Positions 231 through 5,644 of a stretch of DNA of 5,644 nucleotides are shown piece after piece. Each line of letters opens with the position of its first letter. Position 1 is the first letter of the stretch. Both the position numbers and the translations under genes were made by a program. Below the pieces are notes generated by a model, which saw nothing but the letters and a program-made list of their open reading frames with translations, was not told where the DNA came from and searched no databases. The DNA is from Nitrospinota bacterium. GTDB taxonomy: Bacteria > Tectomicrobia > Entotheonellia > J063. The stretch covers positions 1 through 5,644 of the forward strand of contig RFHZ01000494.1 of NCBI GenBank assembly GCA_003696125.1. The letters run 5' to 3'.

Positions 231-1616
231 TTACTTCCACCGGTAGCTCTTCGGGTTGTGGTCCTTGCCATGACACTTCAGGGTGCAGGCCCCTCCATCG
301 CTCCGGTGCTCGTACCGGATCTGTCCACCAGATGAGCTGACAACGGCCGTGTTAAAGACGATCAGGTGGGCACTGGTGGTTCCGTGAATGTTATAGTGAC
401 AGGTTTTACACGAGGTTTGGGCGTCTTTTACCGTATGCACATAGTGGAAGTTCTTGGACCCACTGCTGGTTCCATCCCGGAAATGGGTGTAGGTGCTGTT
501 TGAAGCCCGGGTGTCGGTCAGGTACTGGGTGGAGACGTGACAGTCAAAGCAGACATCGGTAGAGGGAGGGGAAGAGTTATCACCGGTAAAATAGGCCTTT
601 TTCAGGATGGGAGCGTAGATCGACCCGTGGGGACCCCGCACCCCTGTATTGTCACTGGTATGACAGTCCGTGCAGTACACCTGGCTTGTCGCCGTCAGCG
701 GGGCCACCAGGGTCCGGGAATCGATATCGGTGTTCTTCCCCACCGCTTCGACCGGATGAAACGAGCCGTTCGCCGGATCAAACTCGGCCGCCTTGTCCGT
801 GGTTCCGGCCGGGAGCGTGGTCCAGCTCGAGTGACACTTGTAGCAGATCTCGTACTCCTTTACCGCCGTGGTATCCGCCGGGCCGGTATAGGTCAGGGTG
901 CGTCCCAGTCCTACCACGATGCGGCTCACCCCTTTAAGGCGGCTGCTGGCATCCGGAGGCGAAGGCGAGTCGGTCTTGGCCCAATGGGGATTATGGCAAT
1001 CCACACATTCGGCATGCCGGTTGGCCGTACCGAACTTGCTGCTGTCCCCTCCCTCATCAGCGGCATGCCGGCCAGAATAGGTGGTTACCGGATGGCTGGA
1101 CACCTTGCCGATCTCGGTGTACACGTCGCTCGCCGGGCTCCCATCGTGGCACTCCTTACACAGATTCTCCTCCCGTCGCCACACCATATGCGGTACCAGG
1201 CCGGTGCCGTCTTTGTACCCGTGAGGATTGTGGCAGTTGACACACTCTCCCCAATCACCGGCCTGGCGGGCCGGGGGAGGAGAAGGCCATACCATCGAGG
1301 CGCTGGTGGCATGCGTGGAGAGGTCATAGACTGCCTGTCCCTGGTAGATCTGTAGAGCCCCTGCCCCGTTGTGACAGCTATAGCAGAGAGCATTGGTATG
1401 ATCGGCAAAGGGGAAAAAGGGGTAACCGGAATGGGGCAGGTGACACTGATTACAGTCCCCACGAGGCAAAGACACATCTCGCTGCACCCCGCTGAGCGGG
1501 TCACCATGTTTCGTCAGGGTATACACCCCTCCATAAGCGAGGAGGAGGGCAGGGAAGAGGGCAAGGGTAAAACAGATACCTAGAGTCATGCGCACGCAGC
1601 GTTGAGCCTGCTTCAC
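231..1616 (-). CDS. Exported decaheme c-type cytochrome of the paired-CXXCH type
   Basis: A 461-residue protein with a signal peptide (about residues 1-28, hydrophobic run TLGICFTLALFPALLLA) and ten heme sites. Nine are CxxCH, with first cysteines at 55, 78, 125, 153, 204, 258, 315, 356 and 403; the tenth is CTLKCH at 444-449, a CX3CH variant. The sites fall into five pairs spaced 23 to 54 residues apart, as in doubled-CXXCH domain proteins, and several are followed by a second histidine (CHLPH, CHNPHG, CHNPHW) suited to bis-His ligation. No catalytic site is evident, so electron transfer is the likely role, in the periplasm or outside the cell. The start is GTG, with GGGAGGA four bases upstream and directly after the stop of the propeller gene, so the two are co-transcribed. 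It is not a close relative of the OmcS-like cytochromes upstream: the heme order and length differ. The specific partner is unknown. Confidence 0.93.
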   Translation of the reverse strand: MKQAQRCVRMTLGICFTLALFPALLLAYGGVYTLTKHGDPLSGVQRDVSLPRGDCNQCHLPHSGYPFFPFADHTNALCYSCHNGAGALQIYQGQAVYDLSTHATSASMVWPSPPPARQAGDWGECVNCHNPHGYKDGTGLVPHMVWRREENLCKECHDGSPASDVYTEIGKVSSHPVTTYSGRHAADEGGDSSKFGTANRHAECVDCHNPHWAKTDSPSPPDASSRLKGVSRIVVGLGRTLTYTGPADTTAVKEYEICYKCHSSWTTLPAGTTDKAAEFDPANGSFHPVEAVGKNTDIDSRTLVAPLTATSQVYCTDCHTSDNTGVRGPHGSIYAPILKKAYFTGDNSSPPSTDVCFDCHVSTQYLTDTRASNSTYTHFRDGTSSGSKNFHYVHTVKDAQTSCKTCHYNIHGTTSAHLIVFNTAVVSSSGGQIRYEHRSDGGACTLKCHGKDHNPKSYRWK

Positions 1617-1627: not shown

Positions 1628-3043
1628 TTAGCGGACTATGGCCATGGCATAAGGGCGTTTCCCTACCGGAATGGTTGCCTTGACCTGACGCGAGGCGGTA
1701 TCGATGACCGTGACACTATCCGACCCCTGATTCACCACGTAAAGCTTTCCCCGGTCCGGGTCCAGAGCCAGGTAATGGGGAGCCTTTCCCACCGTTACCG
1801 CATCGATTTCGCTGTTCAGAACGGTATCAAACACGGAGACGCGCTGTAGATGGCTTTGGGCCAGGAATACCCTCCCCTTTACCTCATCGGGCAGTACCGC
1901 TGCGGCTGGACCGGCATTGAGCATCTGGGTGACGCGCAGCAGAGGCAGGGAGAGCAGGGCAAGCTGGGGAGAACCCAGGTGAGAGACAAAGGCCTGCGTT
2001 CCGGCCAGATCGATAGCCACATCGGAGGGACGGAAATCGACGGCAATCGTGGCCATGACCTGGTTACGAAAGGTATCGATGACCGAGATCGTATTCGAAG
2101 CGCTGTTGACCACCAGGAGCCTGTCTCCCTGCGGAGTTATGGCCACCGCTACCGGTCTCTGGCCTACCGGGATGGTCTGGATGAGCTGGAAACTCGTTGC
2201 GCTGACGACCGAAACCGTATTTAAAGCCGTATTCACCACATAGAGGGTCTGTCCATCCGGCGTGATGGCCAGGTCAGAAGGATTTCCCCCCAGCTCCAGG
2301 TTTATGGTGTGCAGGACCCGGCTGGTGTTGACGTCGAGCACGGTCAGGGTATGGGAAGCGGCGTTTACGACAAAGGCTCTGGAGGAGTCCGGAGCAACCA
2401 CAATCCCCCGCGGTTTTTCCCCTACGGCCAGCACAGAGATGACCTGGTCGGTGGCGCGATCGATTACCGAGACGGTATCCGAGCCCTCATTGCTCACATA
2501 GGCCAGGACTCCACGGGGAGCATGGGACTTGCCTGCGAAGAGAAAGGCAGGATGAAAGATGGTTTCCCGCTCGATACTCCCCTCTACTTCCCAGGTCATG
2601 AAGAGCGGGGTCACCTCTCCAGGACGGATGGTGAAAGTGGTGTTGAAGCGAAAAGCCTCCTTGGGGAGAGCAAGATCGATCGTCTTCCCCTCCTGGGAGA
2701 GCTGGGCTTTCCGGATGCGGGCAAGAAGAGCGGTGTACCTCCCCTCTGGGAGGAAGGTTTCTGCCAGGAGGAGTTGTCCTCCTACAATCTCCAGGGAGTG
2801 GAGGCGGAGAGGGTGGGACAGCAGGGAAAAGCGGGCACCATCTTCCCGCTCTACGTCTAGAGAGGCCAGTTCTACCGTGATAGCAAAAGGGGTCTTGCTG
2901 GGGCCGTTCAGATAGAGGAGAAAGCGCCCTTCTCCTGCTCTCTTCTCCGGAGGGGGGAAGGGAGGAAAGGCACTGCAGGCGACCAGGCCCAGTGCGAGCA
3001 GGATACCCAGAAAGCGTAGAGTGTATCGCCACCTCTTTTGCAC
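1628..3043 (-). CDS. Outer-membrane lipoprotein: DUF4382-like N-terminal domain plus seven-bladed YVTN/YncE-type beta-propeller
   Basis: Counted from the GTG at 3043 it has 471 residues. A lipoprotein signal ends in LVAC with Cys23, the only cysteine in the protein; serine follows, which favours sorting to the outer membrane. Residues about 37-170 form a beta-rich domain whose pattern (VELASLDVE, then LPEGRYTALLARI, then an FNTTFTIRPGE strand) resembles DUF4382; this is a fold-level impression. Residues 178-471 hold seven repeats of about 42 residues with the YVTN signature (YVVN, NTVSVID, ATIPVGKRP, DVAITPDG). Blades 5 and 6 are degenerate. It binds no heme. Such propellers act as protein-binding platforms; lying between nanowire-type and decaheme cytochrome genes, it may anchor or assemble cytochromes at the cell surface (inference). 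A GTG nine bases further upstream (3052) is possible but has no spaced ribosome site. Confidence 0.9.
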   Translation of the reverse strand: MQKRWRYTLRFLGILLALGLVACSAFPPFPPPEKRAGEGRFLLYLNGPSKTPFAITVELASLDVEREDGARFSLLSHPLRLHSLEIVGGQLLLAETFLPEGRYTALLARIRKAQLSQEGKTIDLALPKEAFRFNTTFTIRPGEVTPLFMTWEVEGSIERETIFHPAFLFAGKSHAPRGVLAYVSNEGSDTVSVIDRATDQVISVLAVGEKPRGIVVAPDSSRAFVVNAASHTLTVLDVNTSRVLHTINLELGGNPSDLAITPDGQTLYVVNTALNTVSVVSATSFQLIQTIPVGQRPVAVAITPQGDRLLVVNSASNTISVIDTFRNQVMATIAVDFRPSDVAIDLAGTQAFVSHLGSPQLALLSLPLLRVTQMLNAGPAAAVLPDEVKGRVFLAQSHLQRVSVFDTVLNSEIDAVTVGKAPHYLALDPDRGKLYVVNQGSDSVTVIDTASRQVKATIPVGKRPYAMAIVR

Positions 3044-3048
3044 CGTCG

Positions 3049-3056
3049 TCACCTCT
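3049..3056 (-). promoter_or_regulatory. Ribosome binding site that favours the GTG at 3043 over the one at 3052
   Basis: AGAGGTGA on the minus strand overlaps the upstream GTG (3052-3050), so it cannot serve that codon. It stands five bases before the GTG at 3043-3041, which makes the shorter form, starting with Gln-Lys-Arg after Met, the better choice. The lipoprotein signal is intact either way. Confidence 0.6.
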
Positions 3057-3070
3057 AACCGGATGCCTCG

Positions 3071-4102
3071 TCATTGATAATGGCACTGCTGGCACGTCTG
3101 CAGCATAGACGTGCCATCCTCCAGGGTGGCCGTGGTCTCGTCGTCAAAGATTAACCCCTTGCGATTCGGAGAGCCGTGTGCCTTATGACACGAACCACAG
3201 AAGACCTCGTTGTCGCTGGTACCGGCCGTGCCCGGGATGGTTCCGCTCGGTGAGACCACCGGGACCCGGGAAGCCAGGGCCGAAAACCAGTGTGACGGGT
3301 CGATATGCTGATTCGCCACCCCTTCCGCCATGGTCACATCGCGTGTCGGATGCCTGAGCCAGGGGGTGGTCCCGGTATCGCCGCTTGCCGACCCCCCCAT
3401 GTTGGCAGCTCCACCCGCACCGTGGAAATTCCCATGACAGCCGGAGCACCATTCAGAGAGCCCGAAGTCGGTCGAGCTGACCTGAGTCTGGCGGTATCTG
3501 ATGTTGCTGGCCGCGTAGTGGGTGGCCATCGGTGTATCGGCGAGTTGTTGAATGGCATAGGTACCGCTGTACGTGGTTCCGGTCATATAGGTCACATACT
3601 TCCCAGACCCGGTTCCCGGGTTGGGTACCAGGTTCCGGTAGTAAGCATTCCCATGCGGGTCGTGGCAGTGCTGGCACTGGAGGCCCGGATTACTCCAGGT
3701 CCCGCCCGGAGGAGCTGCCGTAGAACCCAGGGTATGCCCTGTCCCCTCCACCCCATCCCCCTGCACATTCAGTTGCCCGGCCGCCCGGACATAGCTGTTC
3801 GTGTTGGTTCCTCGCACATCCGGCGTATCGGTTCTCCCATCGTGACAGGAGAGGCAGATCTGGCTTTGGGTATTCTTAAGCAGATAGGGGAAAGGACCAC
3901 CCGGGGCCAGGAAGGGGTCAGGGCCAGGTCCTCCCCCGTACAGATGGGTTTCGCTATAATGGATAACATGACAGTCAGAGCAGAGGAGGGTGTTGGCGTA
4001 GTGGAAATCCCCGGCACCAGCGGAGAATATACTCCAGCCGAGGAGAAAGCCGGAGAAGATCAGAGTCCGAATACCTGAATACGCTCTTCCATAGGGTAAC
4101 AT
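3071..4102 (-). CDS. OmcS-like hexaheme c-type cytochrome (putative extracellular nanowire subunit)
   Basis: From the ATG at 4102 the product has 343 residues, with a signal peptide (hydrophobic LIFSGFLLGWSIFS) likely cut near AGAG/DFHY. Six CxxCH sites have first cysteines at 41, 83, 143, 219, 302 and 337. Order and surroundings follow Geobacter OmcS: FH seven residues before the first heme cysteine, CxxCHxxH at heme 1, a GH motif before CHDPHG, then SEWCxxCH with a nearby FH, LRHP, CHKAHGS and a C-terminal CxxCH. This points to secretion and to stacking of bis-His hemes in a filament that carries electrons outside the cell; polymerisation itself is inferred. OmcS is somewhat longer (about 430 residues). 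The frame stays open to a TTG at 4135, but that would put a charged stretch (RERGKG) ahead of the signal peptide, so ATG is preferred although its Shine-Dalgarno (AAGGG at 4116-4120) is distant. The lipoprotein gene follows closely. Confidence 0.9.
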   Translation of the reverse strand: MLPYGRAYSGIRTLIFSGFLLGWSIFSAGAGDFHYANTLLCSDCHVIHYSETHLYGGGPGPDPFLAPGGPFPYLLKNTQSQICLSCHDGRTDTPDVRGTNTNSYVRAAGQLNVQGDGVEGTGHTLGSTAAPPGGTWSNPGLQCQHCHDPHGNAYYRNLVPNPGTGSGKYVTYMTGTTYSGTYAIQQLADTPMATHYAASNIRYRQTQVSSTDFGLSEWCSGCHGNFHGAGGAANMGGSASGDTGTTPWLRHPTRDVTMAEGVANQHIDPSHWFSALASRVPVVSPSGTIPGTAGTSDNEVFCGSCHKAHGSPNRKGLIFDDETTATLEDGTSMLQTCQQCHYQ

Positions 4103-4178
4103 GTGGGTTACAACACCCTTCCCTCTCTCTCGCAACGCCTCTATGGTCCCGCATACACCCGATGGTTCCTACAAGGAT

Positions 4179-4184
4179 ATTATA
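4179..4184 (-). promoter_or_regulatory. Candidate -10 box of an internal promoter
   Basis: Perfect TATAAT on the minus strand inside an AT-rich patch, about 77 bases upstream of the ATG at 4102. No good -35 stands at 16-18 bases; the nearest match, CTGACA at 4197-4202, leaves only a 12-base spacer. If active it may depend on an activator that binds upstream, for instance near the palindrome at 4215-4227. The expected transcript start is near 4171-4173. Confidence 0.35.
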
Positions 4185-4214
4185 CTCAATATTTCCTGTC
4201 AGGGACGGGGTGGA

Positions 4215-4227
4215 CTGGCCATGCCAG
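4215..4227. promoter_or_regulatory. Short palindrome, possible operator half-sites
   Basis: CTGGC-CAT-GCCAG is a perfect inverted repeat with 5-bp arms and a 3-base centre, about 31 bases upstream of the TATAAT box. The position suits an activator site, but arms this short arise often by chance in GC-rich DNA, and no regulator family is recognised from it. Confidence 0.2.
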
Positions 4228-4280
4228 GCTTCCCCGGCAAAGAAGAAGCCAGGACAGGGAATCTTGGTGTGGGCAACACC

Positions 4281-5321
4281 TTACTTGTTGTGGCACTGCT
4301 GGCAGCCGGCCTTATGGGTGTCACCGGCGCCGATGGAATACTCCCAGCGCAGGCCAAAGGCGTTTCCCGATCCGTGGGCCTTATGACAGGAGAGGCAGAA
4401 GACCTCGTTGTTGGCGGCAACGGTACGCGCTTCGGTAAAGTTCGTTGCTCCCTGCACCAGGAAGGGGAGCCGGCCGATGCTGAATCCGTTGGTGCCGTTG
4501 ACCCAGTTATTCGGATCGGTATTGGCGCCTGACCGGTTTATGGGGGCATACTTCCCGCTCTCGCTGTAGGTCCCCGGATGTTTCTTATGCGGGCTGGTCG
4601 TGGTCACGTAGAACACACTGGAGTGATGACAGGACGAACACATGTTGGTGACCTCTCGCCAGGTGTTATCCCCCGCAGCAGGAGCAGCGTACCCGACATG
4701 ATCTTGACTGTATTTGTTGATACCCGTGGTATCGGTAAAGGCGATGATGGGAGGCTCGCTGCCAGGAGCCGAGGCCCACTGGAGATTACGGTAGTTCCCG
4801 TTCCCATGCGGGTTATGGCAGTCGGTACAGGTCACCTGGGCCACCGGAAACTGGGCCGGAATATTGAAGTGACAGCGGGTACAGAGAGAACCCGGATTGG
4901 CCCCGAGATTGTGCCCGTTGTAAGTCGTCGTTTCAGGATCGGCCGGGAAAAAGCCAGCAGCACGCTTGTCTCCCAACCCGTTCACATCATCCTTCAAGAC
5001 ATCCGGCACCCCGACCTGGCCGTCGTGACAGGAGAGACACACCTGCAGGGCCGTTGCCTGCCGGAGCAGCTTCGAGTTGGGGGTGGTAGACCAGGGATAA
5101 GTCTCCGGTGGACCACCGGGAGGAGACGAGCTGTTTCCCCCGCTGTAGCTGTGCTGCTGGCTGGCATGCATGGCATGGCAGTCGGAGCAGACCAGGGTAG
5201 AGCCGTTGTGGTACGGAAGCGGAATGCTCGGCGGAGCGGCCCGGCAAATCCAGGGAAACCCACCCAGGAGCAGGGCCATGGTCAATCCCACCATCAGCCG
5301 TGCCACAGGCCAGAACCTCAC
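4281..5321 (-). CDS. OmcS-like heptaheme c-type cytochrome with one extra heme site
   Basis: A 346-residue exported protein with a signal peptide (VARLMVGLTMALLLGGFPWICRA, cut near residue 28). Seven CxxCH sites start at Cys 45, 95, 147, 165, 228, 309 and 340. It is a paralogue of the six-heme protein encoded downstream: both share YH/FH seven residues before heme 1, CSDCHxxH, CLSCHDG, a GH-LG motif, HGN-YRNL, the block NEVFC-SCHKAHGS and a C-terminal CQQCH. The extra site is CTRCH at 147-151, only 13 residues before the CTDCHNPHG motif, where the paralogue has a proline/glycine-rich loop. As in OmcS, a role as an extracellular electron-carrying, filament-forming cytochrome is likely; polymerisation is inferred. 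The start is GTG 5321 with an excellent GGGGAGGTGA six bases upstream. The next gene follows after 178 bases, so separate expression is possible. Confidence 0.92.
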   Translation of the reverse strand: MRFWPVARLMVGLTMALLLGGFPWICRAAPPSIPLPYHNGSTLVCSDCHAMHASQQHSYSGGNSSSPPGGPPETYPWSTTPNSKLLRQATALQVCLSCHDGQVGVPDVLKDDVNGLGDKRAAGFFPADPETTTYNGHNLGANPGSLCTRCHFNIPAQFPVAQVTCTDCHNPHGNGNYRNLQWASAPGSEPPIIAFTDTTGINKYSQDHVGYAAPAAGDNTWREVTNMCSSCHHSSVFYVTTTSPHKKHPGTYSESGKYAPINRSGANTDPNNWVNGTNGFSIGRLPFLVQGATNFTEARTVAANNEVFCLSCHKAHGSGNAFGLRWEYSIGAGDTHKAGCQQCHNK

Positions 5322-5327
5322 CTTCTT

Positions 5328-5337
5328 TCACCTCCCC
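5328..5337 (-). promoter_or_regulatory. Strong Shine-Dalgarno fixing the GTG start of the heptaheme gene
   Basis: GGGGAGGTGA on the minus strand, six bases before the GTG at 5321. It picks this in-frame GTG over the internal GTG and ATG codons of the signal peptide and suggests efficient translation. Confidence 0.75.
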
Positions 5338-5365
5338 TCTCTGTCCAGTCCACAGTGAATCCCCT

Positions 5366-5404
5366 GTTTCCCCTTCCTCTCCGCCGACGGGAGGAAGGGG
5401 AAAC
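5366..5404. repeat. Perfect 14-bp inverted repeat (hairpin) between the right-edge gene and the heptaheme gene
   Basis: The arms at 5366-5379 (GTTTCCCCTTCCTC) and 5391-5404 are exact reverse complements around an 11-base centre; a T-G and a C-G pair can extend the stem to 16 bp with a 7-base loop. It sits in the 119-base gap, 37 bases after the stop at 5441 and 44 bases before the next ribosome site. No U-run follows on either strand, so it is not a standard intrinsic terminator. It may stabilise or separate the mRNAs of the two cytochromes, cause partial termination, or be a dispersed repeat unit. Confidence 0.7.
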
Positions 5405-5440
5405 GTCCTGCCTGCTGGCTAGCACCAGTGAGAGGAGGGG

Positions 5441-5644
5441 TTAGATCCCTTTCTTATGGCACTTGTTACAGGTGGCCTTGATGGTGGCGGTTCCTGTTCC
5501 GGTATCCCCGTTCTCGATCTTGAGCTGTCCCCCATTAGTAGGGTCGTTAAAGGTATAGATCAGCCCGAAGGGGTTTACTGAGCCGTGAGCCCGGTGACAG
5601 GACATACAGGACGGTGTGTTATCCGTGGCCGGGATGGTTCCCGA
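5441..5644 (-). CDS. C-terminal end of a third OmcS-like multiheme cytochrome, cut by the window edge
   Basis: The last 67 codons are visible, ending in TAA at 5443-5441. They contain CMSCHRAHGS and, 43 residues further on, CNKCHKKGI at the very end. The visible part starts with SGTIPATDN and parallels the tail of the six-heme protein (SGTIPGTAGTSDN, then CGSCHKAHGS and a C-terminal CQQCH). The CxSCHRAH block and the CNKCH ending are also those of OmcS, as I recall that sequence. It is therefore a third member of the tandem family and the most upstream gene seen. Its total heme number, start and promoter lie outside the window. Read-through into the heptaheme gene is possible, but a strong hairpin lies in the gap. 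Confidence 0.85.
   Translation of the reverse strand, partial: SGTIPATDNTPSCMSCHRAHGSVNPFGLIYTFNDPTNGGQLKIENGDTGTGTATIKATCNKCHKKGI

Follow-up and report, generated by a model that had tools for sequence, protein, structure and literature searches.

Three genes for OmcS-like multiheme cytochromes lie in tandem on a contig from a Nitrospinota bacterium, and the question that they raise is whether such a tandem builds several extracellular nanowires, one, or none. The stretch analysed (hereafter the window) is 5,644 nucleotides (nt) long and is the entire contig C836 (RFHZ01000494.1) of a metagenome-assembled genome (MAG; GCA_003696125.1) of 4.18 Mb in 990 contigs, with a completeness of 94.8% and a contamination of 8%. 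Its genes lie on the minus strand and are transcribed in the order A (end only), B, C, a YVTN lipoprotein and a nine/ten-heme cytochrome. The original prediction, made from the sequence of the window, held that A, B and C are divergent OmcS-like proteins that form either several distinct filaments or one mixed filament. As described below, the kinship of all three with OmcS is strongly supported, whereas a single main subunit accompanied by two minor ones is more likely than several or mixed filaments. Sequence comparison suggests that the window is probably the 3′ part of an osc-type cluster for making, folding and secreting an OmcS-family cytochrome filament, with A as the main and B and C as minor subunits. 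The features on which the argument turns are as follows.

5441-5644, minus strand: C-terminal part of cytochrome A (hemes 5 and 6), OmcS-like, two CXXCH; open reading frame (ORF) truncated by the contig end, remainder on contig C300 (L019:5178-6131)
5366-5404, minus strand: strong hairpin between A and B with 14-nt perfect arms, from folding of the gap
4281-5321, minus strand: cytochrome B, OmcS-like, seven CXXCH, from ORF, motifs and alignment
5166-5189, minus strand: CSDCHAMH of B, heme 1 and the equivalent of His16 (OmcS cross-subunit ligand), from alignment
4869-4883, minus strand: CTRCH of B, extra heme site between OmcS hemes 2 and 3, from alignment
4623-4640, minus strand: CSSCHH of B, heme 4 site and a B-specific second His, candidate ligand of the extra heme, from alignment
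3071-4102, minus strand: cytochrome C, OmcS-like, six CXXCH; likely start ATG at 4102, ORF open to TTG at 4135
3959-3982, minus strand: CSDCHVIH of C, heme 1 and the His16 equivalent, from alignment
3434-3457, minus strand: SEWCSGCH of C, from motif
3347-3358, minus strand: LRHP of C, from motif

A, B and C are relatives of OmcS

The six-heme, seven-heme and truncated proteins were recovered as ORFs at 3071-4135, 4281-5321 and 5441-5644, with six, seven and two CXXCH motifs, respectively; shuffled window proteins of the same composition contained a mean of 0.02-0.03 and a maximum of 2. When the window is joined to C300 (see below), A becomes a composite protein of 355 residues with six hemes. 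Every OmcS motif quoted in the original prediction is indeed present: FH or YH seven residues before heme 1 (H34/C41 in C, H2/C9 in OmcS), CxxCHxxH, CHDPHG or CHNPHG, CGSCHKAH or CLSCHKAH, a terminal CQQCH and, in C, SEWCSGCH with LRHP.

The profile search that had been proposed as a check gave a clear answer. A family profile of eleven members, from which OmcS was left out, matched OmcS in the PDB (6EF8/6NEF) with an E value of 2.4e-57 over its full length, positions 26-332 of 332 aligning to residues 1-406 of the 407 of 6EF8 with the heme sites in the predicted order. The second-best PDB family for this profile was the NrfA-type cytochrome c-552 (E value of 1.7e-7). As a single query, C found OmcS as its sole PDB match (E value of 3.8e-7); B, as a single phmmer query, did not reach OmcS but still aligned within the family.

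Nearly all heme-ligating His residues are conserved across the 65 rows of the ligand alignment, and the six proximal and six distal His residues (OmcS H2, H16, H110, H147, H257, H335) are present in A, B and C. In 64 of the 65 rows, among them all three window proteins, the column of His16 (the second His in CxxCHxxH) is conserved. We take His16 of OmcS to be the ligand of the neighbouring subunit's heme. That OmcS has a cross-subunit heme ligand has been reported (PMC12954529, PMC12307469).

The predicted fold of C is consistent with this kinship. AlphaFold2, given 58 sequences, modelled C as a monomer without hemes at a predicted local distance difference test score (pLDDT) of 67 and a predicted template modelling score of 0.73; a version from 11 sequences (pLDDT 33) was not used. 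Foldseek returned 6ef8_A as the better of two matches (E value of 9.8e-3, template modelling score of 0.38), and comparison of the model with OmcS (VIA) gave a Z score of 8.7 and a root-mean-square deviation of 3.9 Å over 231 aligned residues. As to other PDB folds, the single further Foldseek match had an E value of 4.3, and the lack of others proves nothing. Taken alone, the match of the modelled fold to OmcS is modest, but it points the same way as the sequence searches. Neither outcome named beforehand as refuting the prediction occurred: for C, OmcS ranked first in the PDB, and soluble periplasmic cytochromes gave no better match.

In summary, A, B and C resemble OmcS (6EF8, 6NEF) in carrying its six c-type hemes in the same order with all six distal His residues in register, and OmcS is the top PDB match by sequence and by the predicted fold of C. 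They differ from it in occupying a separate part of the family tree at 25-27% identity, in the seventh heme of B and in a much shorter loop before heme 6.

The three cytochromes are old paralogs

In a family tree of 62 rows, A, B and C fell into three separate supported clades (96/91, 100/99 and 98/87), each of which includes members from other genomes and phyla. The tree does not support a recent local tandem duplication and identifies the three as old, separately kept paralogs. The same order, an A-type gene end followed by B and C, occurs on a single contig of G323, which belongs to another phylum.

B shares the extra heme site, located after heme 2 and before heme 3, with its two orthologs. 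No other protein of the 65 rows has, as these three do, a second His directly after the heme 4 His. Because the extra site and the CHH motif occur in one clade, we ascribe them to one event, and the second His is a candidate ligand of the extra heme. A seven-heme state as a single ancestral trait was rejected, since the position of the extra site varies among rows, with three locations in all. Elsewhere in the family, four OmcS-like proteins have five CXXCH motifs (L103:10736-11791, L104:9433-10635, L098:10861-11910 and L098:17180-18337), the third OmcS site being lost and its neighbours kept, and a 1768-residue ORF of G268 (L098:1673-6979) contains 12 CXXCH motifs and an OmcS-like stretch and adjoins further OmcS-like and NHL genes.

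A hairpin follows the first cytochrome gene

The hairpin in the gap between A and B has a folding z score of -3.9. An ordinary intrinsic terminator was rejected as an explanation, since the hairpin lacks a T-run and a terminator scan did not pick it up; the window gave zero matches to Rfam. At the same place, G323 has an 11-bp hairpin of different sequence. Across the loci compared, a perfect stem of at least 9 bp was found within 110 nt of the stop codon of 25 of 65 OmcS-like genes (a count that leaves out A of the window, which is interrupted by the contig end) as opposed to 15 of 257 other genes from the same loci. When only genes closely followed by another on the same strand were counted, the numbers were 19 of 48 and 6 of 152. 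The Fisher values (2.5e-10 for all genes, 4e-9 for closely followed genes) are not clean because the rows are related, although several families contribute. Such hairpins, mostly without a T-run, lie downstream of OmcS-like genes in L051, L091, L092, L094, L097, L099, L102, L111, L115, L119 and L124-L140. Where OmcS-like genes stand in tandem, it is mostly the first copy that has the hairpin behind it; G174 departs from this, and in G046 both copies are followed by one.

In the genome studied here (G000), the hairpin follows A only, which points to unequal amounts of the three proteins. The omcS gene of Geobacter sulfurreducens is transcribed on its own as well as together with omcT (PMC2680965), and in other operons internal terminators reportedly determine stoichiometry (PMC9045158). 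We infer that this arrangement favours A as the main subunit and B and C as minor partners.

One could instead envision, as originally proposed, a separate filament for each of A, B and C or a single filament into which all three co-polymerise. All three retain every OmcS heme ligand, including the His16 column, they have been kept as separate paralogs over long times, and several OmcS-like genes per locus are common. These observations speak for such filaments. The tandem copies of G. sulfurreducens (omcS, omcT and oscC, in one operon), however, include only one known wire, OmcS (PMC12977616), and the hairpin after A argues for unequal amounts. We therefore regard several or mixed filaments as unlikely.

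The neighbouring genes resemble those of the osc operon

Downstream of C, the window contains two further genes.

1628-3052, minus strand: lipoprotein with a YVTN/YncE-type beta-propeller, from ORF and relatives
231-1616, minus strand: cytochrome with nine CXXCH and one CX3CH (doubled-CXXCH family), from ORF and relatives

When contigs C816 and C300 are joined to the window, the cluster reads, in transcription order, as the terminal portion of an outer-membrane beta-barrel ending in Phe, CsgG/LpoB/GNA1162-like lipoproteins, a SurA/PPIC isomerase, a 26-heme lipoprotein, a 16-heme cytochrome, an NHL propeller, A, the hairpin, B, C, the YVTN propeller and the nine/ten-heme cytochrome. The first ORF is a putative outer-membrane barrel judged by its own sequence; Pfam gave no family above the cut-off. 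The SurA/PPIC-type prolyl isomerase carries a lipobox, and cytochrome c maturation proteins are present in the genome.

Similar neighbourhoods were found at about 15 other loci. In G172 (L103), for example, CsgG-like lipoproteins, the isomerase, the 26-heme and 16-heme cytochromes, an NHL protein, two OmcS-like genes and a YVTN gene form a single run. Relatives of the YVTN lipoprotein adjoin OmcS-like genes in G174, G323, G179, G046 and G172, and relatives of the nine/ten-heme cytochrome do so in several genomes. The OmcS family itself is present in 20 of 386 genomes spread over the domain and in 30 of 80 genomes of one phylum, and was absent from the four other genomes of the window's phylum that were compared; a scan of genome contigs found one relative only, in an Elusimicrobia MAG.

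In G. sulfurreducens, OscH reportedly contains a prolyl isomerase, OscEFG are said to be channel-like and OscD propeller-like. By published accounts, omcS, omcT and oscC share an operon with GSU2500-GSU2493. Proposed roles of its genes are folding for OscH, secretion for OscE, F and G, and filament morphology for OscD, and the operon also encodes the 26-heme cytochrome GSU2495/OscI (PMC13194489, PMC12977616). By family type, a folding factor, channel-like proteins, a beta-propeller and a 26-heme cytochrome likewise adjoin the OmcS-like genes of our cluster. By the same descriptions, the cluster differs from the osc operon in its additional nine/ten-heme cytochrome and two propellers, in belonging to another phylum, and in having the cytochrome genes 3′ of their companions, whereas in G. 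sulfurreducens they are 5′. Owing to these osc-type surroundings, a nanowire locus is more likely than the sequence motifs alone would make it.

Alternatively, A, B and C might have the OmcS fold and form no filaments, acting as monomeric surface or periplasmic electron carriers. The OmcS homologs OmcT, OscC and OmcJ have no known wire (PMC12977616), A, B and C lie outside the OmcS clade, and the electron-transfer role of cytochrome filaments is itself disputed (PMC11077965, PMC13194489). A carrier of this kind would nevertheless be accompanied here by a secretion and folding cluster of the osc kind. It would also retain, as do 64 of the 65 rows, the equivalent of a His that presumably serves the neighbouring subunit in OmcS. 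For these two reasons we think this alternative improbable.

Three observations on the companion genes are recorded here. A comparison of L020/L060, L051, L054 and L100 with L019, L053, L091 and L103 shows the 26-heme and 16-heme companions as separate genes in some genomes and as one 42-heme gene in others, which suggests a pair that has been fused or split. In the Elusimicrobia locus, a HemA-like gene (L018:5915-7054; glutamyl-tRNA reductase, identified by eye) lies between two OmcS-like genes and would tie heme supply to the cytochromes. Within the window, the 231-1616 cytochrome has CTLKCH, the CX3CH motif, at protein position 444, which may bind a tenth heme, and an open frame on the minus strand at 1-180 runs off the left edge, ending in CLSCHVW, and may start another cytochrome gene.

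The contigs join end to end

The last 140 nt of C816 are 98.6% identical to the start of C300, and the 3′ 92 bases of C300 overlap the first 92 of the reversed window with 4 mismatches (95.7% identity) and with the A frame kept. Both junctions are exact end-to-end dovetails that preserve the reading frames, and the GC content and tetranucleotide usage of C816, C300 and C836 are nearer to those of other contigs of the bin than to those of other genomes' loci. Because of the overlaps, the shared composition and the single contig of G323, we treat A as a single gene; the mismatches point to strain variation where the contigs break. An assembly artefact, with C300 and C836 differing in genomic position or strain of origin and the three copies not forming one locus, could draw on those mismatches and on the bin's contamination, but the frame-keeping dovetails, the like composition and the G323 arrangement all argue against it, and with B and C both on the window in any case we consider it very improbable.

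Discussion

We propose that the cytochromes would be exported, loaded with heme, folded with the help of the prolyl isomerase and passed through the barrel/CsgG-like channel, and that A would then polymerise head to tail at the cell surface. The second His of CxxCHxxH would complete the heme of the neighbouring subunit, so that the heme chain for electrons continues from one subunit to the next. B and C may be minor members (base, tip, adaptor or alternative subunit), and the large multiheme companions would supply the filament from the periplasmic side. Through the hairpin, more product would be made from the first gene than from the others, comparable to the extra monocistronic omcS transcripts of G. 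sulfurreducens.

Several points weigh against this proposal. A, B and C are separated from OmcS by a 98/90 branch and so do not group with OmcS proper (GSU2504), and their identity to it is low. Support from the fold comes from C only, as a heme-free monomer model with a modest Z score. The comparison with osc is based on protein families, heme counts and published descriptions, and the contig joins depend on overlaps that contain a few mismatches. Finally, no MtrB/PioB-type porin was found in the genome.

Judged by their descriptions, other systems occupy a similar position. DA_402 of Desulfurivibrio alkaliphilus (PMC12545173) and OmcX, the OmcS-like protein and Apc2a of the sulfate-reducing partners of anaerobic methanotrophic archaea (PMC10553843) are also OmcS-related, outside the OmcS clade, several per genome and proposed to be wires. 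DA_402 shares seven hemes with B; its seventh heme lacks a paired His (PMC12545173), whereas the extra site of B goes with the CHH motif found only in B-type proteins. The operon of the Desulfobacterota MAG QYQD01 encodes a peptidyl-prolyl isomerase and 12-heme and 26-heme cytochromes (PMC12246660). It resembles C816/C300 in having the isomerase beside the 26-heme cytochrome and differs in that the isomerase is said to hold 5 heme motifs and that the accessible part of the report mentions no adjacent OmcS-like tandem.

A more specific version of our proposal is that A, B and C constitute a conserved heteromeric nanowire kit. A would make up the bulk of the filament, its excess arising from a transcript end or a stabilising element at the hairpin. 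B, with its extra heme, and C would be minor subunits with dedicated tasks: initiating, anchoring or capping the filament, or connecting it to the machinery in the outer membrane. We know of no dedicated minor subunit described for a cytochrome nanowire, and we put this version forward as a tentative possibility.

The OmcS/osc-type cluster is of a kind already known, to which this locus adds a member. It places a nearly complete nanowire cluster of this type in a sparsely sampled phylum, with a neighbourhood common to several other lineages. The three old paralogs, together with the hairpin after the first, make the role of tandem OmcS-like copies directly testable.

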